Assembly: GCA_039725955.1 (NCBI GenBank)
Contig: CP091034.1
Span: 2,666,001 to 2,730,000 of the forward strand
DNA from: Sinorhizobium sp. B11
GTDB taxonomy: Bacteria > Pseudomonadota > Alphaproteobacteria > Rhizobiales > Rhizobiaceae
Reading direction: 5' to 3'
DNA: 64,000 bases
Position 1 is the stretch's first letter. Each line of letters opens with the position of its first letter. The notes beneath the pieces are model-generated. The model was not told the DNA's origin, made no database searches, and saw only the letters and a program-made list of their open reading frames with translations. Positions 24,842 to 54,481 of this stretch are shown in pieces. The translations under genes were made by a program, and so were the position numbers.

Positions 24842-25052
24842 CGACGGAAGCTGGTCCCCTCGGATGTGAACGTCACCGGCTCGCTGAGCGGCGCATACAT
24901 CCCTTATCCCCCAAGGTGCTTCCGAGAAAGGGGCTGTCGCTCGCGACTACACACACGTCGTCCACTCATGATGTTTTCAACCATATCTAGAAGAAAAAAG
25001 AAATCTCGAAGAACATAATTCCCGCAGCACGAGAATCAAAATAAAGATACCC

Positions 25053-25101
25053 CGCCAATCACAGCACAAGAGGCTGTGCGCAGCATAATTGAGGGATAAT
25101 C
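25053..25101 (+). repeat. Duplicated leader, copy 1
   Basis: CGCCAATCACAGCA at the start, then GCAGCATAATTGAGG, ending immediately before an ATG 49 bp downstream. The same block precedes the second lipoprotein gene with the same 49-bp spacing. Confidence 0.75.
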
Positions 25102-25443
25102 ATGCGCGCCTATATTGCATTGACATTGATCGCCACCGGATTGCTCACCGGCTGTGTGCCGACCGAGAAACAATATGATGCAGCTGTCAGAGTGGCGCGG
25201 GGCAGCGAGAGTCAGAGAAACGGGCTTTTGAACGATTGCATCAGGCAGCTCGGCTTATCCGACACGAAGTCCCGCCATAACGCCGCACTCTTCCTGAACG
25301 TGGCAGAAAAGGACGCTCCGAAGATTGCCTGTGGCCGATACACAAATGCGATCGTTTCCGGCGACATAACCTACCAGGATATGCTCGACATCAAAAATCA
25401 CCGCTACACCCCGAAGCTGATCAAGATCTTCCGGGGCGGTTGA
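25102..25443 (+). CDS. Small lipoprotein, first of a tandem pair
   Basis: 113 residues. A lipoprotein signal (MRAYIALTLIATGLLTGC, cleavage before Cys18) is followed by VPTEKQYDAAVRVARGSESQ, a Cys (LLNDCIRQLGL) and a second Cys (APKIACGRYTNAIVSGDITYQD). The two Cys of the mature domain may form a disulfide. It is about 40% similar by eye to the next gene. Family not recognised. It probably sits on the outer membrane. Confidence 0.8.
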   Translation: MRAYIALTLIATGLLTGCVPTEKQYDAAVRVARGSESQRNGLLNDCIRQLGLSDTKSRHNAALFLNVAEKDAPKIACGRYTNAIVSGDITYQDMLDIKNHRYTPKLIKIFRGG

Positions 25444-25464
25444 GGCAGACGCTTCGAGATGCCT

Positions 25465-25513
25465 CGCCAATCACAGCAAAAAACACTGTCCGCAGCATAA
25501 TTGAGGAATAATC
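25465..25513 (+). repeat. Duplicated leader, copy 2
   Basis: Same block as 25053-25101 with a few changes in its middle. The GCAGCATAATTGAGG core and the distance to the ATG are unchanged, so promoter, leader and gene were duplicated together. Confidence 0.75.
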
Positions 25514-25852
25514 ATGCGTGCCACTATTGCAATAACATTGATTGCCGGACTGCTCGCAGGCTGCGCGCCGACGCAGCAGGAATATCAAGCCACTGTCACG
25601 GCGCTGCAAGGCAGTCCTCGGTTGAGGACGGAGGCGCTTAACAATTGCGTCCAGCGTCTGAGCAGGCTCGACAAGAGCACACTTCACGACGGCGCCGTTC
25701 TCATGAACGTCTCGGATAAGGATGCGCCTCGGGTCGGCTGCGCGCGCATGCAAAAAGCTCTGGTCTCCGGCCGGGCAACCTATCAGGATGCGGTCGACAT
25801 CACGAACAACCGCATGACGCCGAGAGTCATCAAGATCTTCCAGGACCGCTAA
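25514..25852 (+). CDS. Small lipoprotein, second of a tandem pair
   Basis: 112 residues with a lipobox (LIAGLLAGC). The mature part parallels the first copy: PTQQEYQATVTALQGSPRLR, LNNCVQRLSRL, VSDKDAPRVGCARMQKALVS, GRATYQDAVDITNNRMTPRV. Both Cys are kept while many surface positions differ, which suggests an old, functional duplication and not a recent artefact. Outer-membrane or periplasmic location is inferred; function unknown. Confidence 0.8.
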   Translation: MRATIAITLIAGLLAGCAPTQQEYQATVTALQGSPRLRTEALNNCVQRLSRLDKSTLHDGAVLMNVSDKDAPRVGCARMQKALVSGRATYQDAVDITNNRMTPRVIKIFQDR

Positions 25853-25877
25853 GGCGGAAAGCGTCAAATGTCGCAAT

Positions 25878-39151: not shown

Positions 39152-39682
39152 ATGGCAATCTATGCGCTCGGAGGCCAGCACCCGAAACTGCCGCCGCACG
39201 GCACCTTCTGGATCGCCCCCGAAGCGCATGTGATCGGCCATGTGGAACTCGCCGAAGAAGTCGGCATCTGGTTCGGTGCCGTCCTGCGCGGTGACAACGA
39301 ACCCATCGTCATCGGCAAGGCCACCAACCTGCAGGAAGGCGTCATGGTCCACACCGACCCCGGCTTCCCCACCACGATCGGCGATCACTGCACCATCGGC
39401 CACCACGCCATCATCCACGGCTGCACGATCGGCAACAACACCCTCATCGGCATGGGCGCCACCATCCTGAACGGCGCCAGGATCGGAAACAACTGCCTCG
39501 TCGGCGCAAATGCGCTCATCACCGAAGGCAAGGAATTCCCCGACAATTCCCTCATCGTCGGCTCACCCGCCAAGGCGATCCGCACGCTGGACGACGACGC
39601 GATCGCCAGGATCACCCAGTCGGCAAAGAAATATGTCGGCAACTGGCAGCGCTTTGCGCGGGATCTCGAGCGGATCGATTAG
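39152..39682 (+). CDS. Gamma-class carbonic anhydrase-family protein
   Basis: 176 residues with left-handed beta-helix repeats. The zinc His triad is visible in QEGVMVHTDPGFPTTIGDHC and IGHHAIIHGCTIG, and the Arg/Asp pair in VLRGDNEPIVIG. The end RTLDDDAIARITQSAKKYVG, NWQRFARDLERID is the conserved C-terminal helix. It probably hydrates CO2 or binds bicarbonate or acyl groups. A 93-bp near-copy of this 3' end is repeated at 41848, after a two-gene insertion. Confidence 0.92.
   Translation: MAIYALGGQHPKLPPHGTFWIAPEAHVIGHVELAEEVGIWFGAVLRGDNEPIVIGKATNLQEGVMVHTDPGFPTTIGDHCTIGHHAIIHGCTIGNNTLIGMGATILNGARIGNNCLVGANALITEGKEFPDNSLIVGSPAKAIRTLDDDAIARITQSAKKYVGNWQRFARDLERID
39587..39679 (+). repeat. 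Direct repeat left copy (3' end of gamma-CA gene)
   Basis: 93 bp coding for LDDDAIARITQSAKKYVGNW and on to the Asp before the stop. It matches 41848-41940 with seven mismatches, five of them silent. It marks the left edge of an inserted segment. Confidence 0.9.
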
Positions 39683-39766
39683 CGTCTACGATTGGTTCAG
39701 CTCAATTATTGCCGCTCTTGACGTTTTTTGAACTCTCTTTCCTAAGAAATGCGGTCATGGCCGGAG

Positions 39767-40693
39767 TCACGCCAGTGGCATTTTAATGCGCACAGGCAAG
39801 CCAGCCGCCACCGGCTCGTCGTCATTCATCCTAATCATACCTGTGGGCTCCACCACGAAATTCGCGACGAAGAGAGCATTTGAATAAAAGATGGTCGCCG
39901 CCACCAGATAATTTCCGCTCTCGGTCATCCCGTCATAAGTTGCGGGACGCGCTGAACCCGCAATTATATGACGTGTTTTGTCGTCCATCTCCTCTGGCAA
40001 AAATGGGTCGTCGCCCGCTTCTAAGACGCAAAACGGCCCCTCTTCCCCATGCACCATCGAGCAGAAAAAACGAACGTAATCCAATATGTTATCTTCACTG
40101 AGGTGAATCGGCGCCTTAGCGTTCACCTTATGAATTGGCGGGCTAGTTCCATTAAGACGAAATACGTCTCCTTCATCCTGAAGATAGTAGATTATAAGGT
40201 CTCTATTTCCCCAGCTCTCGTCGGTAAATGCGAACATCTTCGTATTTTCGTAAAACGGCAGTCCTCGCTGAAAGCCTCGGGTCGTCTCTAGGCTCATACG
40301 GTATTTGCCATCCACTGGCGCAACTCGGGCGATCCAATCCTCCAAAGTTTTCGCTGATATCTCGGACCAGTTTTTACCGCTCCCGCCCAACAGTCGGCGG
40401 TCTAACTCGGCGCCCCCCACCCAGACGATTTCGTCTAGTAGAGCACCTTCCAACAATGTGCCTTCGAGCGCGGTCCGGCTCAACCGCGCGCCCCTCATAT
40501 CACTGCCGCGAAGGTCCGCGTCCCGGAAGCTGAACGCTGTCAAATCCTCTCCAGCGACTTTCAACTCTCGCAAATCCGCGCCTTCGAAATCCACATCGGG
40601 CGCAAGCCCTGCCAACTCAGCCAGCCGCACAAGACTGTCCGTGTCCGAACAATTCTCATATAGCCTCTCTACCGCCGCCTCTAATCTTGGCAT
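39767..40693 (-). CDS. Pentapeptide-repeat protein of the inserted module
   Basis: 308 residues, no signal. After a helical start (VERLYENCSDTDSLVRLAEL), about 10 pentapeptides follow (residues 34-95: FEGADLRELKV, AFSFRDADLRGSDMRGARLS, LEGTLLEGALLDE). From about 105 an unknown C-terminal domain follows (ETTRGFQRGLPFYENTKMFA, SWGNRDLIIYYLQDEGDVFR). GGAGGAAAC precedes the ATG, which lies one base after the partner's stop, so they are co-transcribed. Codon use and GC are visibly lower than the surroundings. It may act as a scaffold or effector of a transferred two-gene system. Confidence 0.75.
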   Translation of the reverse strand: MPRLEAAVERLYENCSDTDSLVRLAELAGLAPDVDFEGADLRELKVAGEDLTAFSFRDADLRGSDMRGARLSRTALEGTLLEGALLDEIVWVGGAELDRRLLGGSGKNWSEISAKTLEDWIARVAPVDGKYRMSLETTRGFQRGLPFYENTKMFAFTDESWGNRDLIIYYLQDEGDVFRLNGTSPPIHKVNAKAPIHLSEDNILDYVRFFCSMVHGEEGPFCVLEAGDDPFLPEEMDDKTRHIIAGSARPATYDGMTESGNYLVAATIFYSNALFVANFVVEPTGMIRMNDDEPVAAGLPVRIKMPLA

Positions 40694-40694
40694 G

Positions 40695-41546
40695 TCAGTT
40701 TCCTCCCGATTGCAGCGGCAGCCTTTGCAGCATCACCGTGCCTGCGAGGATCTTGCCAAGCGCCAAGCGCCCGACGATGTCGCGTTTTTCTCGCCCATCG
40801 ACCAATCGCTTTCCATGCTGATGTATAGGGCTAAGTTCATTGAACTCGATTTCGGTCCAGTGGAAATCGCGTGCACGAACTTCCAACCGCATCTCGATAC
40901 AGCCATCGGGCTCAATCATCAAAATCCGAGCCAAGCCCGCGCCTTCGCTTGCAGACCGCATTCGCTCGCCGATAAGCACAAAAACATTGCCGCTGGAGGT
41001 CTCATATGGGGTCAGAGGATCTGGCTCAATGAGCCAATCAACCTGCCCCACCTTACCGTCCGAGCGCTTCTTCAAGAATGCGGAAATAAGGCTTCTCTTA
41101 CCTTCCGTTTCCTGGGTTAGCTCATGCACCTCGTGTTTGCCGAACGCCTGCCGCAACTTACCATCGGTCCTTCCCTCAGCCGAGAACCCCTTCCATAAAC
41201 CGACTTCGGCCTGCGCCGCGACTTGCGCCTCCCCACCCTTCTCGCTATCGACTGTTTTCGTTACCTTGACCTTCAAATCCTGTGTTTCATCCGAGCGAAC
41301 GACATATGCAATGCTCTCGGGTTCACATACGCAACCCAGTCCGTGCGCGCTAATGCGCCCGCGAGTAAGGGCAAACTCGGCGCGACCTTCATCGAAATCT
41401 ATTGAGCCTGGATTGAAGTGCACGGTCCCGACAAGGATAAACCCCTCTGCAGTACGCTGAGCAGCCGAAAAATCGGGAAATACAACATCGGTCTCTGCCA
41501 GAGCTTCTCTGCTGATCTCTCCATATTCCGTCTTCTTCCAGAACAT
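40695..41546 (-). CDS. Unknown protein, first gene of the inserted module
   Basis: 283 residues from the ATG at 41546 (AGGGCGGGA upstream); an AT-rich extension to 41798 has no ribosome site. The protein starts MFWKKTEYGEISREALAETD and contains GFILVGTVHFNPGSIDFDEG, a charged middle (EVGLWKGFSAEGRTDGKLRQ) and a beta-rich C-terminal part (GNVFVLIGERMRSASEGAGL, LARILMIEPDGCIEMRLEVR). No enzyme motif, membrane or signal is seen. It is the promoter-proximal gene of the pair and may be the sensor or antidote of the pentapeptide protein, which is inference only. Confidence 0.7.
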   Translation of the reverse strand: MFWKKTEYGEISREALAETDVVFPDFSAAQRTAEGFILVGTVHFNPGSIDFDEGRAEFALTRGRISAHGLGCVCEPESIAYVVRSDETQDLKVKVTKTVDSEKGGEAQVAAQAEVGLWKGFSAEGRTDGKLRQAFGKHEVHELTQETEGKRSLISAFLKKRSDGKVGQVDWLIEPDPLTPYETSSGNVFVLIGERMRSASEGAGLARILMIEPDGCIEMRLEVRARDFHWTEIEFNELSPIHQHGKRLVDGREKRDIVGRLALGKILAGTVMLQRLPLQSGGN

Positions 41547-41847
41547 TTCCCGCCCTCGCGCTTCCGCAGCTATCCGTAATTTACTATTTTTTCTCGGATC
41601 GAGCGAGGTATGTTGTATTAAATATCGAAAACCGCTCCATCTGAGTCGTCTCCTCCCCATATTTTCTGTACGCCTGAAACTACATTTAGATTTCTGTATA
41701 AAATTCCACACTTTAGTCGCGCATATATAAATACAGAACTTCGTCATACACTTGGAGAAACCAGATAGACCATCGACACTATTTGGATTTTCTCTCAAAA
41801 CGTTCTGTGGTCAGCAAAGATTTTGTGTCTATCAGGCGATCTGCACC
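41547..41847. other. AT-rich promoter region of the inserted module
   Basis: About 300 bp of AT-rich sequence between the module's first gene and the duplicated gamma-CA end. No complete gene was found; it probably holds the promoter of the pair. No integrase or inverted terminal repeat is visible. Confidence 0.5.
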
Positions 41848-41940
41848 TTGGATAACGAGGCGATCGCCAGGATCACCCAGTCCGCGAAGAAGTATGTCGG
41901 CAACTGGCAGCGCTTTGCGCGGGATCTCGAGCGGATCGAT
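41848..41940 (+). repeat. Direct repeat right copy (orphan gamma-CA 3' end)
   Basis: Codes LDNEAIARITQSAKKYVGNW and on to ID, then TGA, with seven differences from 39587-39679, mostly silent. The fragment has no gene upstream of it, so it is the displaced or imported end of a gamma-CA gene and marks the right edge of the insertion. Confidence 0.9.
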
Positions 41941-41980
41941 TGATAGTCGACCGCGGGAAGATCTGACAGCGCGGCCGTTT

Positions 41981-42679
41981 TCAGTCGGTCGTTGCCGCGA
42001 GAATCCTGCCGCCCCTCGGCTCCTGGACGATGACGGCGCTCTTGAGGTCGCCGGCCGTAGCCGGGATCGGCAGCTTCAGCATCTTGCCGTCCCAGGTGCC
42101 GAGACGCGTCAACTCGTGCACGACATGAGCGTGCGGCAATGTCTCGCCGGCATTCTCGCCTCTGGCGACCGGAACCTGCACGGTGCCCGGAGCGTAGCGG
42201 ACGAGCCAGACGTTGGCCGCGGCAGCGCGGCCCTTCGCAGCGTCGATGACAGCCACGTTCGGGGCCAGCGCGATCCCGGGGCCTGACAGTGCGGGCTCGG
42301 ACGCGATCACGCGCCGGATCTGGTTGAGATCATAGCCGACGGTCGACTGGTGGCCGTTGACCACCATCTGCGGCGTGAAAGGGCCGGATTGGCCGAGTGC
42401 GGGCTCGTAGGTCACCTGCCGGTCGGTGAATTCCTTCTTCCCGAAAATGTCCTTCCATCCGAGATAGTCCCAATAAGTCACCGAGAAGCTCAGGGCGAGC
42501 ACATCAGGATCGTTGCTGAGCCTGACGAGATTGGCATTGGCCGGAGGGCATGAGGAACAGCCCTGGCTGGTGAACAATTCCACGACCGCAGGCGATTGCC
42601 CGGCGGAGGCCTGAGAGGTGGAACCAAGGCCGAAGATTGCGGCGATGATCGCAAGATTGAACGGGGCTGAATATGTCAT
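41981..42679 (-). CDS. DUF1223 thioredoxin-like secreted protein
   Basis: 232 residues from the ATG at 42679 (GGGAGC upstream). Signal peptide MTYSAPFNLAIIAAIFGLGS to about ASA. The mature protein starts PAVVELFTSQGCSSCPPANA with the CSSC redox-type motif, then SFSVTYWDYLGWKDIFGKKE and FTPQMVVNGH, which are hallmarks of DUF1223. The fold is glutaredoxin/thioredoxin-like and periplasmic. It is divergent from the cytochrome b/molybdopterin genes and may assist them in redox maturation, but that is unproven. Confidence 0.9.
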   Translation of the reverse strand: MTYSAPFNLAIIAAIFGLGSTSQASAGQSPAVVELFTSQGCSSCPPANANLVRLSNDPDVLALSFSVTYWDYLGWKDIFGKKEFTDRQVTYEPALGQSGPFTPQMVVNGHQSTVGYDLNQIRRVIASEPALSGPGIALAPNVAVIDAAKGRAAAANVWLVRYAPGTVQVPVARGENAGETLPHAHVVHELTRLGTWDGKMLKLPIPATAGDLKSAVIVQEPRGGRILAATTD

Positions 42680-42903
42680 GGCGGTGCTCCCTGATGATCT
42701 GCATCTCGTTCTCCTTCGCGGGCGGAACGCCATTCGTTACAGCCTCACGCACTTGTGACGGTGTCCGGAAAGCCGCGCCGCCAGCCTTTCCCGGCCAAAG
42801 GCCTCCGGCGGCAGCGAAAAAACTTCGGGACGCCTGTAACAAATCCCGCTTCGCCTACGTACATGCAGTAGGGGCGTGACGGTATCGGACATCGAAAACG
42901 ATC

Positions 42904-43758
42904 ATGGCAACACTCGACGATCACAGCCAGGCCACTCCAGCAGGCCCGACGATAACAGTCATCCGCCGGCACTCGCTGGCAACCCGCATTACACACTGGA
43001 TCAACGTTCTCTGTCTCAGCCTGCTTTTGATGAGCGGGCTGCAGATTTTCAATGCCCACCCGGCGCTTTACTGGGGCCAGTACGGTGCGGATGCAGACCC
43101 CTCCTGGCTGTCGATCGGCGCCGTCGATGGCGGCACGCGCGGCGTGCTTCGCATCGGCAATCTGCAGATCACCACGACAGGCGTTCTCGGCGTTTCGGGA
43201 ACGGGCGATGATGCGACCGAGCGTGGCTTCCCTTCCTGGATCACCATTCCGAGCTACCAGGATCTAGCAACCGGCCGCCGCTGGCATCTGTTCTTTGCCT
43301 GGCTCTTCGTCATCAACGGATCGATCTATGCGCTCATCGGTTTCCTGTCGGGCCATTTCCGCCGCGATCTGGCGCCGAGCGGCGAAGAGATCTCGCCGCA
43401 CCATCTGGGCCAGGAGATCGCCGACCACGCGCGCCTGCGCTTCCCGAAGGGTGAAAAAGCAAGGCGTTACAATGTGCTGCAGAAACTCGCCTACCTGATC
43501 GTCATCTTCATCCTGCTGCCGCTGATGTTTGCAACGGGCTTGACCATGTCACCCGCCATGGATGCCGGCTATCCCTTCCTGCTCGAGCTGTTCGGCGGCA
43601 GACAAACGGCCCGGTCGATCCACTTCATCTGCGCCTGGTCGATCGTCCTCTTCGTTTTCGTGCATATCGCCATGGTGATCCTGTCCGGCCTCTGGAACAA
43701 CATGCGCTCGATGATAACGGGCCGCTACGTGATCGAAACCGAAAGGGACGATCGATGA
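42904..43758 (+). CDS. Cytochrome b561-type membrane subunit
   Basis: 284 residues with four main membrane helices. Candidate heme ligands are His in LATRITHWINVLCLSLLLMS, RRWHLFFAWLFVINGSIYAL, RSIHFICAWSIVLFVFVHIA and the following helix. A periplasmic loop (about 60-110) is larger than in plain b561. It passes electrons between quinone and the molybdopterin enzyme encoded next; the genes overlap by 4 bp (ATGA). This is the layout of YedYZ/thiosulfate-reductase-like pairs. Confidence 0.88.
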   Translation: MATLDDHSQATPAGPTITVIRRHSLATRITHWINVLCLSLLLMSGLQIFNAHPALYWGQYGADADPSWLSIGAVDGGTRGVLRIGNLQITTTGVLGVSGTGDDATERGFPSWITIPSYQDLATGRRWHLFFAWLFVINGSIYALIGFLSGHFRRDLAPSGEEISPHHLGQEIADHARLRFPKGEKARRYNVLQKLAYLIVIFILLPLMFATGLTMSPAMDAGYPFLLELFGGRQTARSIHFICAWSIVLFVFVHIAMVILSGLWNNMRSMITGRYVIETERDDR

Positions 43759-44531
43759 CCTTCTCCATTACACGCCGCGGCCTGCTGATCGGATCGGCTG
43801 CCGGACTCGGTGCATTCGGCCTGACCGGCTGCGACGATGTCGTCCAGAACCCCAACGTCCAGTCCGTTCTCGACATGGCCGAGACGCTGACGATGAAAAG
43901 CCAGCGGCTGCTCGTTCCCAAGGACAAGCTGGCGCCCGAATATACCGAAGCCGATATCTCGCCGACATTCCGGCCGAACGGCACCAGCCAGCCAGACAGC
44001 GAAGCCTATGCGCAGATGATGGCAACCGGCTTCGCCAACTGGCGACTGAAGATTGACGGGTTGGTAGAGCGTCCCGTCGAGCTTTCGCTCGCAGATCTGA
44101 AGAAGCTGCCCTCGCGCACCCAGATCACCCGCCACGACTGCGTCGAGGGCTGGAGCGCGATCGGCAAGTGGACGGGCGCGCAGCTCGGACCGCTCCTGCA
44201 GAGCGTGGGGCTGAAACCGCAAGCCCGCTATGCCGTCTTCTACTGCGCAGACCAGCTCGAGCAGACGCTGGACGGTAGCGGAACCTATTACGAAAGCATC
44301 GATCTCATCGACGCCTTCCACCCGCAGACCATCCTCGCCTACCAGATGAACGGCAAGGATCTGGAGGTCGCCCACGGCGCCCCGCTTCGCCTGCGCGTCG
44401 AGCGCCAGCTTGGCTACAAGCATGCCAAATACCTGATGCGGATCGAGATGAAGGACAGCTTCGCCGGCCTGTGGGGCGGCAAGGGCGGCTTCTGGGAAGA
44501 CCGGGGCTACGAATGGTACGCCGGAATCTAG
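43755..44531 (+). CDS. Molybdopterin-dependent oxidoreductase (sulfite-oxidase fold)
   Basis: 258 residues with a twin-arginine-type leader (SITRRGLLIGSAAGLGAFGL, followed by TGC), so export is probable. The molybdopterin domain has the Mo-ligand Cys in ITRHDCVEGWSAIGKWTGAQ, LLQSVGLKP, AYQMNGKDLEVAHGAPLRLR and GYKHAKYLMRIE, typical of the YedY/sulfite oxidase family. The cofactor is Mo-MPT and the electron donor/acceptor is the overlapping cytochrome b. The natural substrate is not certain. Confidence 0.9.
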   Translation: MTFSITRRGLLIGSAAGLGAFGLTGCDDVVQNPNVQSVLDMAETLTMKSQRLLVPKDKLAPEYTEADISPTFRPNGTSQPDSEAYAQMMATGFANWRLKIDGLVERPVELSLADLKKLPSRTQITRHDCVEGWSAIGKWTGAQLGPLLQSVGLKPQARYAVFYCADQLEQTLDGSGTYYESIDLIDAFHPQTILAYQMNGKDLEVAHGAPLRLRVERQLGYKHAKYLMRIEMKDSFAGLWGGKGGFWEDRGYEWYAGI

Positions 44532-44543
44532 GCACTCGTGCCC

Positions 44544-44607
44544 CCGAACAGTCTTACTGCGGGACAGTCTTGCCCCGGGACAGACTTGCCGCGCGACAGA
44601 CTTGCAA
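44544..44607 (+). repeat. Four tandem 16-bp repeats
   Basis: Four contiguous 16-mers of the pattern CGGGACAGWCTTGCCC (last three closest, first more diverged) lie between the molybdopterin enzyme and the Met-rich gene. No spacers separate them, so this is a tandem array and not CRISPR. It could be a regulator binding array or a slippage product. Confidence 0.75.
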
Positions 44608-44642
44608 AGGGCAATGGCGCCCGCAAGGAGGAGGAGAAGATC

Positions 44643-44915
44643 ATGTTGAAATGTACAGCAGCAGCAATCGTCCTGACAGCAGCTTTCGCCCTGCCTGCCT
44701 TTGCACAGGACGCGATGATGTCGGCGAAATGCGACGAGGCTTCGATGATGAAAATGCAGGCCGACATGGATGCCATGACGGATCCTGCCATGAAGGAAAA
44801 GAAGGAAATGGCGTCCAAGGAAATGATGATGGCCAAGGATTCCATGAAGGCCAACAAGATGGAAGAATGCAAGACGCACATGGAAAAAGCCATGAAAAGC
44901 ATGAGCAACATGTGA
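44643..44915 (+). CDS. Met/Lys-rich small periplasmic protein
   Basis: 90 residues from the ATG at 44643, behind AAGGAGGAGGAG. Signal peptide MLKCTAAAIVLTAAFALPAF to about AFA. The mature part is almost entirely M, K, A and E (DEASMMKMQADMDAMTDPAM, KKEMASKEMMMAKDSMKANK), with Cys in AKCDEA and EECKTH. It could bind Cu(I) through Met or act as an oxidant sink. It is downstream of the redox operon but separated by the repeat array, so it may have its own promoter. Confidence 0.7.
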   Translation: MLKCTAAAIVLTAAFALPAFAQDAMMSAKCDEASMMKMQADMDAMTDPAMKEKKEMASKEMMMAKDSMKANKMEECKTHMEKAMKSMSNM

Positions 44916-44962
44916 AGCCTGCCGGACAGATGCGGGCGGCCCTGGGGGCTGCCCGCGGCATG

Positions 44963-45120
44963 AACGCCGCTGCGCGATCGGCGGCAACCGCCCCACCGGC
45001 GCCAATGTGTTCGCCGCTGAACTAACGGAATTCCCAGACAACGGCCTGATCGCCGGCTCACCCGGCCATGCCATCCCTTACGCTGGAGGAGTCGGCGCAA
45101 TCCGTCGGGCGCGCAACGCT
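44963..45120 (+). pseudogene. Decayed gamma-carbonic anhydrase-like 3' fragment
   Basis: In one frame the sequence reads GANVFAAELTEFPDNGLIAG and SPGHAI, then a diverged tail, aligning without gaps to GANALITEGKEFPDNSLIVG and SPAKAI of the protein at 39152. No upstream part of the gene is present. It is the third gamma-CA end in 6 kb and may mark an older insertion into the same gene. Confidence 0.55.
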
Positions 45121-49895: not shown

Positions 49896-50798
49896 ATGAA
49901 AGCCATTCAGTTCAGCCGCTATGGCGGCGCCGAAGTCCTCGATATCGTCGAGATCGATCCACCGCATCCCGGCCCCGGAGAGCTGCGCATCAGGGTGCGT
50001 GCAGCCGGCGTCAATCCCTCGGACTGGAAGCGGCGCGAGGGACAATATCGCGCTTTCGAGGACGTCCGTTTTCCCTCCCGCGTCGGCGTCGAGGCCTCCG
50101 GCATCGTCGATGAAGTCGGCGCCGGCGTCGCGAGCACTTTGGTCGGCGATGCCGTCTTCGGCTATGGCCGGGCCACGATGGCCGAATATGCCATCCTCAC
50201 CCACTGGGTTCACAAGCCCGACGACCTGCCCTTCGAGATCGCCGGCGGCCTGCCCGTGATATCGGAGACCGCCTGGCGCGGCCTCGATGAGCTTGGCATC
50301 GAAGCCGGTGAGACGCTGCTCGTCAGCGGCGCCGCCGGCGGCATCGGCTCGGCCGTAATCCAGTTGGCGCGCATCCGGGGCATTACCGTAATCGGCACGG
50401 CAAGCCCGCAGAAACACGATTACCTGAAGAGCCTTGGCGCCATCCCGACGACCTACGGGCCGGGCCTCGCCGATCGCGTGCGCCAGCTCGCGCCCGAGGG
50501 GATCGATGCGGCGCTCGATATCGCCGGCTCCGGCATCATCCCCGAGCTGATCGCACTGACCGGCGATCCCGCCCGTGTGCTGTCCGTCGCCGATTTCTCG
50601 GCGGAGGAATATGGCGCGAAATTCTCGCACGGCCCGCCGAAGGAGCCCGAACGAGTGCTCGCCGATGTGGCACGGCTCTATTCCAGGGGCCAGTTCCGGC
50701 TGCACATCGAGCGAAGCTTTCCGCTCGAACTGACGGCCGCTGCCCAGACCGTCAGCGCCGCCGGCCGCGTCACCGGCAAACTCATCATTTCCCCATGA
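49896..50798 (+). CDS. Zinc-free quinone-reductase-like MDR oxidoreductase
   Basis: 300 residues from the ATG at 49896 (AAAGGAG upstream). Medium-chain fold: KAIQFSRYGGAEVLDIVEID, AAGVNPSDWKRREG, VGVEASGIVDEVGAGV and the nucleotide loop LLVSGAAGGIGSAVIQLARI. It lacks the catalytic zinc Cys/His set, so it fits the NADPH:quinone reductase group. It shares an operon with the drug exporter at 50795 (4-bp ATGA overlap), under the TetR gene at 49060. It may detoxify what the pump expels. Confidence 0.92.
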   Translation: MKAIQFSRYGGAEVLDIVEIDPPHPGPGELRIRVRAAGVNPSDWKRREGQYRAFEDVRFPSRVGVEASGIVDEVGAGVASTLVGDAVFGYGRATMAEYAILTHWVHKPDDLPFEIAGGLPVISETAWRGLDELGIEAGETLLVSGAAGGIGSAVIQLARIRGITVIGTASPQKHDYLKSLGAIPTTYGPGLADRVRQLAPEGIDAALDIAGSGIIPELIALTGDPARVLSVADFSAEEYGAKFSHGPPKEPERVLADVARLYSRGQFRLHIERSFPLELTAAAQTVSAAGRVTGKLIISP

Positions 50799-52003
50799 GT
50801 CAGACCATGAACAGACCCCTCATCGTCATCTTCACCGCCATCTGCCTCGATGCCGTCGGCATTGGCCTGATCTTCCCGATCCTCCCCCGCCTGCTTCAGG
50901 AGGTGACGCATTCAGCCGATATCGCCTTCTATATCGGCATCATGACCGCGCTCTATGCCGCCATGCAATTCGTCTTCGCCCCCGTGCTCGGCGCACTCAG
51001 CGACAGTATCGGCCGCCGTCCGGTGCTCCTGATTTCGCTTGCGGGCGCTGCCGTCAATTACGTCATCATGGCCTTTGCGCCCTCGCTCTCCCTGCTCTTT
51101 GCCGGCCGCGCCATCGCTGGCCTCACCAGCGCCAACATGTCGGTCGCATCCGCCTATATCACCGACATTTCGCCCGCCGATCAGCGCGCCCGTCGCTTCG
51201 GCCTGTTCAATGCCATGTTCGGCGCCGGTTTCATCATTGGACCGGTCCTCGGCGGCCTGCTCGGCGATTACTGGCTGCGCCTGCCCTTCATCGCCGCCGC
51301 CGTGCTCAACGCCGCAAACCTGCTGCTTGCCCTCTTCGTCCTTCCGGAATCCCGGGCGCCCTCCCGCCGGACGATAAATATCGCAGCCCTCAATCCGCTT
51401 GCGCCCTTCAAACGGCTCGTCTCGATGAAGGCACTGCTGCCGATCGTGCTGGTCTATTTCGTCTTCAGCGCGGCCGGCGAATCCTACGGCACCTGCTGGG
51501 CGCTCTGGGGTTTCGATGCCTTCGGCTGGAACGGCGTCTCGATCGGCCTGTCGCTCGGCGCCTTCGGCATCTGCCAGACCGTCTGCCAGGCCTTCCTCCC
51601 CGGCCCCGCCACCCGCCTGCTCGGCGAGCGCTGGTCGGTGCTCACAGGCATCGCCGCTGCCTGCCTCGCCCTTGTTGTCATGGCCTTCGCGAACCAGGGC
51701 TGGATGATCTTCGCCATCATGCCTGTCTTCACCCTCGTCGGCATCGGCAACCCCGCCTTCCAGGCGCTTGCCACAAGCAAGGTCGCTCCCGACCGGCAGG
51801 GCGAGCTGCAGGGCCTGCTCGCCTCCACGATCAGCCTCGCCTCGATCATCGCGCCGCTCGGTTTCTCAGCCCTCTATTTTCTCACGCGGGAGAAATGGCC
51901 GGGCGGCATCTGGCTCTCGGTGATCGCGCTTTATGCAGTCGCAGTGCCGTTGGTGCTGATGAGCACGAGAACCCGTGCCATTGGAGAGGCCGTAAATGCT
52001 TGA
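50795..52003 (+). CDS. TetA-type MFS drug exporter (DHA1)
   Basis: 402 residues, 12 membrane helices. Signature A in VLGALSDSIGRRPVLLISLA, helix 1 with IVIFTAICLDAVGIGLIFPI (the Asp of TetA-like pumps) and MFGAGFIIGPVLGGLLGDYW as motif C. The closest family is TCR/Tet, but rhizobial members usually export other compounds, so tetracycline resistance is not claimed. Co-transcribed with the reductase behind a TetR-controlled promoter. Confidence 0.9.
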   Translation: MSQTMNRPLIVIFTAICLDAVGIGLIFPILPRLLQEVTHSADIAFYIGIMTALYAAMQFVFAPVLGALSDSIGRRPVLLISLAGAAVNYVIMAFAPSLSLLFAGRAIAGLTSANMSVASAYITDISPADQRARRFGLFNAMFGAGFIIGPVLGGLLGDYWLRLPFIAAAVLNAANLLLALFVLPESRAPSRRTINIAALNPLAPFKRLVSMKALLPIVLVYFVFSAAGESYGTCWALWGFDAFGWNGVSIGLSLGAFGICQTVCQAFLPGPATRLLGERWSVLTGIAAACLALVVMAFANQGWMIFAIMPVFTLVGIGNPAFQALATSKVAPDRQGELQGLLASTISLASIIAPLGFSALYFLTREKWPGGIWLSVIALYAVAVPLVLMSTRTRAIGEAVNA

Positions 52004-52017
52004 GGACTTTGCGTGAC

Positions 52018-52061
52018 CCAAAGCCGCTGGCAGCTTTCGGGCAGTCCTGCCTGCCGCGAGA
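52018..52061 (+). repeat. Diverged copy of the cyclase 3' end (left)
   Basis: 44 bp that match 52601-52644 at about 36 positions. On the minus strand it reads RQAGLPESCQRLW against REAGLPER-stop-QRLW of the cyclase gene. It marks the left side of an inserted low-GC ORF. Confidence 0.6.
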
Positions 52062-52082
52062 CGCCATTCTTGTCCGCATCAC

Positions 52083-52544
52083 ATGAAGTATGCATATCAT
52101 AGTCAAATGAAGATACGGTCGATTTGCGCAGACTTGTTTAGCTTCGATGGAAATGTTGATCGGGCAAATCCCGTCGCCATCCGCGTCGAGCTTTCCAATA
52201 ATTCTGCAATCAGAATACGCGGTTCCAGTGATGGAGAGAGCATAACCGTGGATGATCAACCTCTCGAAGGTCCTGCCGATATGGCAGAGCTTGGGAAGAT
52301 TGAAGTTCAGCAGCTTACAGACCACTTCGACGATGCGATCTTAGGCTGCGAGATCGTGACGGTGAACGAGGTTCTGGACGGCAACAATATTGCGGTCGGA
52401 CTAGCTTTCAATAGTAGTGAAACCATAGTGCTTTGCATTTGGAACTACGGCGACGAACTACACTACGGCAACTTTGCCACCATGGCTCAGCAGGATTGGG
52501 GAGCGACACTCCATGTCTCCTCAAAATGCTACGAATTGAGATAG
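52083..52544 (+). CDS. Unknown low-GC protein between duplicated ends
   Basis: 153 residues (ATG at 52107 gives 145). Acidic, beta-rich: MKIRSICADLFSFDGNVDRA, VAIRVELSNNSAIRIRGSSD, VTVNEVLDGNNIAVGLAFNS, LCIWNYGDELHYGNFATMAQ. The form recalls immunity proteins of polymorphic toxin systems, but no family is recognised and no toxin is adjacent. GC content is visibly lower than that of its neighbours, and the ORF is bracketed by duplicated pieces of the neighbouring cyclase gene, which points to transfer. Confidence 0.65.
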   Translation: MKYAYHSQMKIRSICADLFSFDGNVDRANPVAIRVELSNNSAIRIRGSSDGESITVDDQPLEGPADMAELGKIEVQQLTDHFDDAILGCEIVTVNEVLDGNNIAVGLAFNSSETIVLCIWNYGDELHYGNFATMAQQDWGATLHVSSKCYELR

Positions 52545-52600
52545 GTCACGTCGATAAGCAATAGGTGGTCGTGGCTAGCGCCCGGGCTCGCCTTGCATGT

Positions 52601-52644
52601 CCAAAGCCGCTGTTAGCGCTCGGGCAGCCCCGCCTCCCGCAAGC
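52601..52644 (+). repeat. 3' end of the cyclase gene (right copy)
   Basis: Covers the last codons and stop of the cyclase gene on the minus strand plus 12 bp beyond. Partner of 52018-52061. Confidence 0.6.
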
Positions 52645-54481
52645 CCTCGGCCGTCCGGTCTGCCCATTGCGGCACGCCCCGAAACACGGGCCTCGACAGA
52701 TATCGCTCGATTGTAAAGTGAGGCTCGATCTGCAGCAGCTTACCAGCGGCCCACCTGGCCGTCGTCAGGTCGCCGCTCATCGCCGCCCAGGCCGCCATCA
52801 TCCGGTAACACCAGGTGACATCAGGATGTTTGTTGACGACCTCGCGGGCGATGGCGACTGCCTCGGAAAGGGAACCTGCCATGGCGAGCGAAAGGGCCAT
52901 GCCCATCCGCATGTTGAATGTCAGCGGGTCTGCCGGGCTCAGCGTCAGAGCCCGTTCGAACCGTCCCGCAGCACCGGGCTCGCCCTTGTAGCTTGCAACC
53001 CAGCCATAACGCGCCCATGCCCAGGCATTGTTCGGATCGAGCGCAAGGGCCCTTTCGAGATAGGCGGCCGCACGCTCCTGATCGCCGCAATGGCTGAGAG
53101 CCCCGCCGACCGCCGTCAGCGCCGTCGGATCATCATCGATGGAGCCCACTGCGGCCTCGACCGCCTTCAAGGAGCGTTCGAGGTCCCGCGCGGGTTCGTC
53201 GGTCCAGATGTAGCCGAGATGCTGTGCGTAGCACCATGACAGAAAGGCGTGAGCGCGGCCGTAAGCGGGGTCGATCGCGATCGCATCCTGCAGCAATGGT
53301 ATCGCTCGCTCGTTCGTCGCCTTGCTCTGCCCCCAAAGGTAGGGATAGGCGCGCATAACGAGATCGTAGGCCCGCAGGCTGTTTGGCGGCTTGCGCTTCG
53401 AAAGCTCGGTTTCAGCGCTGCGGATGGCCGGATGGATGGCGCCGGCGACCTGCGCGGCGATCCTGTCCTGAAGCTCGAAAATATCCTCGGTCGCCCCCTC
53501 GTAACGTTCGGACCAGAACTGCGTGCGCGTCTCGGTGTCGACCAGTTGCACCGAGATCCGCAGGCGGTCTCCGCCGCGCCGCACGGTGCCCTGGACCACG
53601 TAATTGACGCCGAGTTCGCTCTCAAGGTCATGCACGTCGACGAAGCGGCCCTTGTAGGTGAAGGCGGATTGGCGCGCGATGACGAAGAACTCGCGAACGC
53701 GCGAAAGCGCCGCGGTGATTTCCTCCACGACGCCATCGACGAAATACTCATCGCCCTGGCCGCTGAGATTGTCGAAGGGCATGACGACGATCGACGGCTG
53801 GTCCCTGCCGAAGCGCTGAGCAGGTGATGGCGTTGCTGGCCCTGTCCCCTGCGCTGGCCCCGCCCCGCGCGCTGGTCCGGCATCCCCGCCTTCAGGCGCC
53901 TCCAGCAGCCAGTCGACCCGAAAGACGGATATCGGCCGGGGTATGTTCTTCATGGCGCGTTCGCCGAGGCTCGTCAGCACGAACGGAACCTTGCCATAGA
54001 GATGCTCGCGCACGGACCCGGAAATGCAGATGCCCGACGGCGGCGCCATCTCCTGCAGGCGCGCGGCAATATTGACGCCGTCGCCGAGCAGATCGTCGCC
54101 CGACACGATGACATCGCCCAGATTGACGCCGATGCGGAATTCAAGACGGCGTTCCGCGGGCATGTCCTGCGGATTGCCGGCAAGGCGCCGCTGGATTTCG
54201 ACCGCGCACCTGACAGCCTGAACAGCGCTTGCGAATTCGGCGACAAACCCGTCACCTGCTGTGCCGAAGATGCGGCCCTCATGCTCGCGCACGATCTCGG
54301 CTATCAGGCTGAGGCACAGGTTGAGGGCATGAATCGTGCCCTCCTCATCCAGCGCCGTAAGGCGGCTGAAACCGGCAACATCGGCGGAAAGGATGGCTGC
54401 GAGCTTTCGATCCACGGTGGTGGTTGCTCCTGCGGAGTATCGTACCCTGGGATGAATATGCGCGGATTTCACCAAATTCAT
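52613..54481 (-). CDS. Class III cyclase-homology protein with TolB-like and TPR regions
   Basis: 622 residues. N-terminal cyclase domain about 24-190 (LAAILSADVAGFSRLTALDE; GRIFGTAGDGFVAEF; LLGDGVNIAARLQEM), then a Pro/Gly linker and an FlgO/TolB-like part (SIVVMPFDNLSGQGDEYFVD, VVQGTVRRGGDRLRISVQLV). From about 380, TPR repeats follow (AIPLLQDAIAIDPAYGRAHA, AAYLERALALDPNNAWAWAR). This is a large rhizobial cyclase type. The metal Asp are present, but the purine-contacting Lys of GRIxKTTGDG-type members is Gly here, so activity is doubtful. A GTG at 54415 is an alternative start. No membrane segment. Confidence 0.88.
   Translation of the reverse strand: MNLVKSAHIHPRVRYSAGATTTVDRKLAAILSADVAGFSRLTALDEEGTIHALNLCLSLIAEIVREHEGRIFGTAGDGFVAEFASAVQAVRCAVEIQRRLAGNPQDMPAERRLEFRIGVNLGDVIVSGDDLLGDGVNIAARLQEMAPPSGICISGSVREHLYGKVPFVLTSLGERAMKNIPRPISVFRVDWLLEAPEGGDAGPARGAGPAQGTGPATPSPAQRFGRDQPSIVVMPFDNLSGQGDEYFVDGVVEEITAALSRVREFFVIARQSAFTYKGRFVDVHDLESELGVNYVVQGTVRRGGDRLRISVQLVDTETRTQFWSERYEGATEDIFELQDRIAAQVAGAIHPAIRSAETELSKRKPPNSLRAYDLVMRAYPYLWGQSKATNERAIPLLQDAIAIDPAYGRAHAFLSWCYAQHLGYIWTDEPARDLERSLKAVEAAVGSIDDDPTALTAVGGALSHCGDQERAAAYLERALALDPNNAWAWARYGWVASYKGEPGAAGRFERALTLSPADPLTFNMRMGMALSLAMAGSLSEAVAIAREVVNKHPDVTWCYRMMAAWAAMSGDLTTARWAAGKLLQIEPHFTIERYLSRPVFRGVPQWADRTAEGLREAGLPER

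Follow-up and report, generated by a model that had tools for sequence, protein, structure and literature searches.

At one gene junction in Sinorhizobium sp. B11, the 3′ end of a cyclase gene is present twice, in diverged copies on either side of a low-GC segment that carries an orphan ORF. Relatives in which the junction is empty hold a single copy, other relatives hold alternative inserts at the same position, and the same structure recurs at the end of a gamma-CA-like gene elsewhere in the window, the 64,000-nucleotide stretch of contig CP091034.1 (assembly GCA_039725955.1, positions 2,666,001 to 2,730,000) analyzed here. The explanation that we favor over import of a gene end by homologous recombination, with a probability of roughly 0.6, is the insertion of a foreign fragment that duplicated its target, captured at a staggered break. 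A foreign fragment of ∼0.53 kb with one orphan gene would have entered the short spacer between a convergent MFS transporter gene and the cyclase gene, leaving ∼47-57 bp of target (the last cyclase bases and spacer) on both sides of itself. The cyclase would have retained a complete end, and the far copy would have become a relic.

A repeated gene end brackets the inserted segment

The left neighbor at the junction is an MFS transporter gene (50795..52003, + strand; Pfam MFS_1, E 2.4e-47) with orthologues in relatives, and the right neighbor is an intact adenylate/guanylate cyclase gene with TPR repeats (52613..54481, − strand; Pfam Guanylate_cyc, E 2e-9, and TPR). The two genes are convergent, with the repeat copies and the low-GC ORF lying between them. 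The earlier note had described a recurrence of the cyclase gene end at about 36 of 44 positions; the repeat search and alignment place it at 35 of 43 (81%), between a left copy at 52018..52060 and a right copy at 52601..52643, and self-BLAST of the window recovers the pair at E 5e-4. The right copy is the live gene end, comprising the final 31 bases of the cyclase, including the stop, and 12 spacer bases past the gene. The left copy is a relic that, when read as a cyclase end, lacks the stop codon (by eye). The duplication is slightly longer than 43 nt, at about 47-57 bp: approximately 12 spacer bases beside each copy match as well, allowing one indel (MAFFT). The left arm of this longer duplication is the native MFS-cyclase spacer at 52004..52017, delimited by MAFFT alignment with two relatives, G171 and G032, and by the overlap of the two alignment arms on G171, and the right arm is the spacer at 52588..52600 (MAFFT).

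A chance or convergent resemblance between two terminator-like gene ends would be in keeping with the position of both copies at the 3′ sides of convergent genes, where small hairpins are possible by eye, yet its probability is close to negligible. The best 43-nt match between the two 300-bp zones at the junction is 35, compared with a maximum of 28/43 among 1000 first-order Markov shuffles and of 33/43 among 410 real control zone pairs of equal spacing within the window, so that no shuffle and no control pair attains 35/43. The genomes with an empty site and a single copy, described below, refute it as well. The possibility raised in the earlier note that the left copy would turn out to be random similarity in a wider alignment is likewise excluded, because the copy is contiguous from the MFS gene into the native spacer: on the MFS side, the match to G171 runs through the left copy over 106 bp (90.6% identity). 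A remnant of another cyclase paralogue was also considered for the left copy and ruled out, given this contiguity with the MFS-side spacer and the match to the G171 empty site.

The inserted segment occupies approximately 52061..52587. It is absent from G171 and G032 and unmatched in the same-species genome G148, and its GC content is ∼0.51-0.52, against ∼0.62-0.67 in the flanks. Its orphan ORF (52083..52544, + strand) is 153 residues long in the open reading frame list; the true start is probably the ATG at 52107, which would give 145 residues, and homology with the reading frames of two relatives begins at this codon. Across the genus, the ORF is present in 3 of 148 genomes and was not found in G148. 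The other two carriers hold it at other loci, as relatives of ∼63-64% identity in G131 (L089) and 48% in G034. The G131 DNA alignment spans 52066-52538, taking in ∼40 bases upstream of the shared start codon, and starts six bases past the end of the left copy; it therefore lends independent support to the left junction. Around the relatives in G131 and G034, only short repeats were seen, none recognized as a gene-end copy. As a separate observation, a short dispersed repeat, palindrome-like by eye, occurs near the ORF relative in G131 (L089 6501-6539, 8030-8057 and 11186-11224).

Family model searches returned no protein family above cut-off for the orphan ORF. It was not found in 72,556 plasmid records, and a pattern scan of GTDB contigs, sensitive to close relatives only, returned one relative. 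The AlphaFold model, built on a two-row alignment, has a pLDDT of 36 and is unusable. A reading of the cargo as defense genes was rejected, PADLOC giving zero matches for the three proteins scanned, namely the orphan ORF and the two proteins of a second inserted segment, P, described below.

Empty sites and alternative cargo at the MFS-cyclase junction

Searching 148 genus genomes with window positions 51700-53000 found the MFS-cyclase pair together in six of them (G000, which is the genome under study, G148, G171, G161, G157 and G032). Two of the six junctions are empty (G171 and G032), one holds the orphan ORF, one holds a 373-residue ORF and two hold another gene. In both empty junctions, the cyclase end is single, as the earlier note had anticipated for strains without the ORF, and the duplication is thus tied to the insertion. 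On the cyclase side, the match to G171 starts from the right copy (168 bp, 85%), and it overlaps the MFS-side match by 47 bp on one and the same stretch; the corresponding overlap in G032 is 32 bp. Conversely, a cyclase-end query found two adjacent cyclase ends in G000 alone among the 148 genomes. Genomes lacking the ORF while keeping both repeats, which the earlier note had named as evidence against the idea, were accordingly not seen among the 148, in a query that scored the G000 relic at E 1.3e-4 and that more diverged relics could escape.

The occupied junctions differ in content. In G148, the junction holds ∼1.6 kb of other DNA with the 373-residue ORF (L059 2820-4390), and beyond this insert, adjoining the cyclase, the MFS gene end recurs (89 bp, 75%). 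In G161 and G157, it holds ∼1.1 kb of shared other DNA, esterase-like by eye, and no duplication is visible around these two inserts. A neighbor's end is thus duplicated in two of the four occupied junctions. Since the inserts of G000, G148 and G161/G157 differ, the MFS-cyclase junction is a swap site, occupied by different whole genes in different genomes. Elsewhere, two copies of an MFS gene end stand 2.1 kb apart on one strand of locus L147 (G104:C104, ∼6952 and ∼9074); these are probably tandem MFS genes.

Nested insertions at a gamma-CA-like gene end

The second case concerns a gamma-CA-like gene (39152..39682, + strand, from the open reading frame list; the name is that given in the earlier note), whose region query matches 148 of 148 genus genomes. 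The duplication that the earlier note had described there is a real repeat with the same structure and with empty sites of its own. The left copy is the live gene end (39573..39680, self-BLAST), and the distal copy, of 108 bp and 91.7% identity, lies at 41834..41941 (self-BLAST and alignments). Between them, segment P (39683..41833) encodes a pentapeptide-repeat ORF (39767-40693, − strand; Pfam Pentapeptide, E 2.7e-7) and a second ORF (40695-41798, − strand). Segment P is missing from G148 and G171, which carry one gamma-CA end each, and the two alignment arms overlap by 108 bp on G148.

Beyond the distal copy, segment Q (41942..44960) encodes DUF1223, cytochrome b561 and molybdopterin oxidoreductase proteins (Pfam). 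At its far border, ∼3 kb on, lies a decayed third copy of the gamma-CA 3′ end (44961..45102, 71%), which is better kept in G157 (90%) and G153 (89%) over 217 aligned positions. In G136, the gamma-CA end is single, segment Q is absent and the next gene begins 38 bases later. From the third gene-end copy and this empty site, segment Q appears to have arrived by an earlier insertion of this kind, and P would be the newer one, placed between Q and the live gene. G143 (L146 7251-7350) holds a further copy of the gamma-CA end (86%), beyond an SDR gene and ∼5.6 kb downstream of its own end; this copy is unaccounted for by the two insertions of the other genomes.

Age and origin of the copies

At the junction, eight differences in 43 positions are improbable if the MFS genes are the yardstick, with a four-fold divergence of 4.0% between G000 and G148 (P 0.0003), marginal at the 8.9% of their cyclases (P 0.034) and expected at the 17.5% that separates the cyclases of G000 and G171 (P 0.49). 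The copies are therefore too diverged for a young in situ duplication, and either the event would be older than the separation of G000 from G148, which would since have lost or replaced the insert, or one copy would have been imported. By eye, the left copy seems to hold the derived base at four of the eight differences and the right copy at two; at the remaining two, G148 shares the base of the right copy and G171 that of the left. At the gamma-CA gene, the single copy of G148 shares 98.1% identity with the live copy and 91.7% with the distal one. All nine differences between the copies fall within the first 59 of the 108 bp, and six of the nine are synonymous (hand count). The live copy has a unique base at 39598 and the distal copy at 39581 and 39593, the distal copy has the commoner state at 39622 (10/13) and 39625 (7/13), and the other four differences are less clear, giving mixed polarity signals overall. 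Both loci could thus fit either an in situ duplication that took place after G171 had split off and before G148 did, and that G148 has since lost or replaced, or the acquisition of one copy from a related genome.

Import of a gene end by homologous recombination is possible, if on the unlikely side. The incoming DNA would already have borne a related gene end, making the copies different from the start, and could have entered in one of three ways: a single crossover with a circular molecule, a homologous exchange at one end coupled with an illegitimate join at the other, or a swap of the whole occupied allele via the conserved flanking genes. Several features speak for it: the junction copies differ more than same-species divergence predicts; the gamma-CA differences are confined to one part of the repeat, with the commoner base at two sites in the distal copy; the MFS-end remnant of G148 has 75% identity, against 96.7-99.3% between the MFS genes of G000 and G148 in four 300-bp windows (50700 to 51899); and different genomes carry different cargo at the junction, as in the minimal mobile elements of Neisseria. 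However, the polarized changes also fit a single in situ duplication dating from between the two splits, that of G171 and, later, that of G148, and derived bases occur in both gamma-CA copies, at the unique sites given above. Moreover, no donor with cargo beside a matching gene end was seen, the ORF relatives of G131 and G034 being elsewhere, and for segment P there is none among the matches listed. In 300-bp windows, G000 and G148 are 91.3 to 99.3% identical, with no clear tract at the site and the lowest values at 50100 and 53700.

Alternatively, the allele with the ORF could be ancestral in the clade, the single-copy genomes having arisen by later deletions between the direct repeats. We consider this improbable. 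The divergence of the copies does suggest an age beyond the G000-G148 split, and direct repeats promote deletions, as is reported for Haloquadratum (PMC3119063). Against this, the ORF is low in GC and known from so few genus genomes, at a different locus in each of the other two, G171 and the more distant G032 are both empty, and an insertion with duplication would still be required to make the repeat.

How the fragments may have entered

No terminal inverted repeats were found in the two inserts tested, for which 197 of 300 and 35 of 300 shuffles score as high or higher, and a transposon or MITE was rejected on this ground. A recombinase or integrase domain was found in none of the proteins of the orphan ORF, segment P or segment Q, a scan that covered these three and not the G148, G161 and G157 cargos. 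The duplications are about 47-57, 108 and ∼215 bp long, and the cargos are unrelated. Taken together, the lack of a recombinase domain and of terminal inverted repeats and the varying lengths count against a transposon and would speak against a fixed attachment site as well.

That a recombinase supplied in trans integrated the segments site-specifically at gene 3′ ends, with the copies as attachment sites, is accordingly very unlikely. It would account for the way in which segments stack beside the live gamma-CA gene, each followed by a copy of the gene end and the better-kept copy nearest the gene in G000, and for the fact that the copies end near the stop codon. It is opposed by the spread of lengths over three target genes, among which no common core is apparent, and by the lack of an integrase in the proteins scanned. 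A single insertion mechanism common to the two cases, at which the earlier note had hinted, finds no clear support: the duplication lengths differ, the cargos are unrelated, no shared terminal sequence or enzyme was found, and the signature marks only 2 of 10 indel sites.

Varying duplication lengths, on the other hand, would sooner be expected from break repair than from a single enzyme. In the capture that we favor, a staggered break with long overhangs would have been filled in and rejoined by end joining while the foreign fragment was taken up, and we propose that the long, variable duplications around foreign DNA arise because the staggered break is filled in during the joining of the fragment. 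The location of the duplications at gene ends would reflect selection, an insertion surviving only if its duplication does no harm to either neighbor. The direct repeats could later permit precise loss of the insert by recombination, which would keep the site polymorphic. Bacterial NHEJ can reportedly serve the acquisition of heterologous DNA, going by the title of a 2019 study by Dupuy et al.

In G000, six Ku-domain matches lie above cut-off (C2:564193, C2:567810, C3:40067, C3:40774, C3:437394 and C3:438283), four of which form two neighboring pairs on C3. These genes indicate a capacity for end joining only. In Rhizobium etli, a study stresses in its title the prevalent role of homologous recombination in break repair (PMC10932983), and the NHEJ products that it describes are mainly small deletions (PMC10932983), which counts against capture at a break. 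A broader proposition, that rhizobia, with their several Ku genes, acquire small orphan genes when end joining captures DNA at staggered breaks, with long target duplications as the scars at gene ends and with the gamma-CA and MFS-cyclase ends as repeated landing sites that stack or swap cargo, is speculative and in our estimate doubtful.

Frequency of the pattern

Aligning 400 kb of G000 to G148 (97.8% identity) yielded 10 sites with an indel or replacement of 150 bp or more. Border duplications of 40 bp or more occur at two of them, both in the window, and the remaining eight lack the signature; weaker matches at the 10 sites (19 bp near 2752248 and 35 bp inside the insert at 2883295) were not counted. 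At G000:C2:2752248 and 2880496, G000 and G148 carry different small ORFs in the same place, without long border duplications.

The earlier note had proposed a genome-wide scan for ORFs bracketed by duplicated ends of a neighboring gene. A scan for nearby direct repeats covered 1.2 Mb of the 7.37-Mb genome at a threshold of at least 78% identity, a level too high for old relics like the gamma-CA copy at 71%, and to this extent returned both known cases and four candidate pairs. It gave 17 repeat pairs (6 + 7 + 4), six of which touch an ORF end; besides the two present cases, these are the four candidates, at three loci near C2:1002166, 1217978 and 3765304. Of the four other pairs of the first 400 kb, two resemble, by eye, coding motifs of ATP-binding proteins, one resembles a dispersed element and one is unclear. 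From the 2 of 10 indel sites and the few repeat pairs, the insertion pattern with a duplicated gene end is therefore uncommon in G000. Its two cases lie ∼12 kb apart, in a region of variable gene content among the compared relatives. The window also contains an adjacent direct repeat of ∼400 bp with 68% identity (25045-25449 and 25457-25858).

Relation to known systems

Comparison of Helicobacter pylori 26695 and J99 revealed insertion with long target duplication (Nobusato et al. 2000, Gene 259:99, as cited in PMC1643837, PMC3031569 and PMC4978471), which, in the account of these later papers, frequently involves restriction-modification genes (PMC1643837, PMC3031569, PMC4978471). As in H. 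pylori, on this account, long, variable direct repeats flank genes of one genome, and the repeated sequence occurs once in the other. The insert is absent from G171 and G032 for the ORF, from G148 and G171 for segment P, and from G136 for segment Q. The target is duplicated when occupied and single when empty (overlaps of 47 bp on G171, 32 bp on G032 and 108 bp on G148), and the duplications are long and variable, at about 47-57, 108 and ∼215 bp. Unlike the H. pylori cases as described there, the inserts carry an orphan ORF, pentapeptide-repeat genes and redox genes, their flanking copies have diverged, and two nested events occur at one gene end (gamma-CA). No restriction-modification family was found in the orphan ORF or the two segment P proteins. 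Both loci fit the category ‘insertion with long target duplication’, in another group of organisms and with unrelated cargo.

The minimal mobile element of Neisseria (Saunders and Snyder 2002 and Snyder et al. 2007, as cited; definition in PMC3082526) resembles the junction in its differing whole-gene cassettes between two conserved genes, which is what the six junctions display (PMC3082526). Its definition, as worded in that source, includes homologous recombination, which is one possible route at the junction, and omits duplicated gene ends. In Haloquadratum walsbyi, for which repeat-mediated deletions and deletion-coupled insertions are described, unrelated sequences occur at the same position in two close genomes, and direct repeats around strain-specific DNA are single in the other strain, as here (PMC3119063). 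There, the repeats are described as usually <20 bp and are read as causing deletions, whereas here they are gene-end copies of 43-215 bp (PMC3119063). In homology-facilitated illegitimate recombination, one end of a foreign linear DNA is joined through homology and the other by an illegitimate event (PMC3240628). Such a process could leave a donor gene-end copy, but no homologous donor was seen here. Judged by titles and, in part, opening abstract lines, no rhizobial case appeared among the papers listed, and reports in rhizobia may exist.

Significance

The entry of single orphan genes into bacterial chromosomes without a mobile-element enzyme is poorly understood. Within ∼13 kb of this genome, empty sites, alternative cargos and nested events are visible at two gene ends. 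The role of the genome's Ku genes is testable. Insertion with long target duplication, captured at staggered breaks on the reading that we favor, would mean that a pattern known mainly from restriction genes of H. pylori also occurs in a soil alphaproteobacterium and with unrelated cargo.
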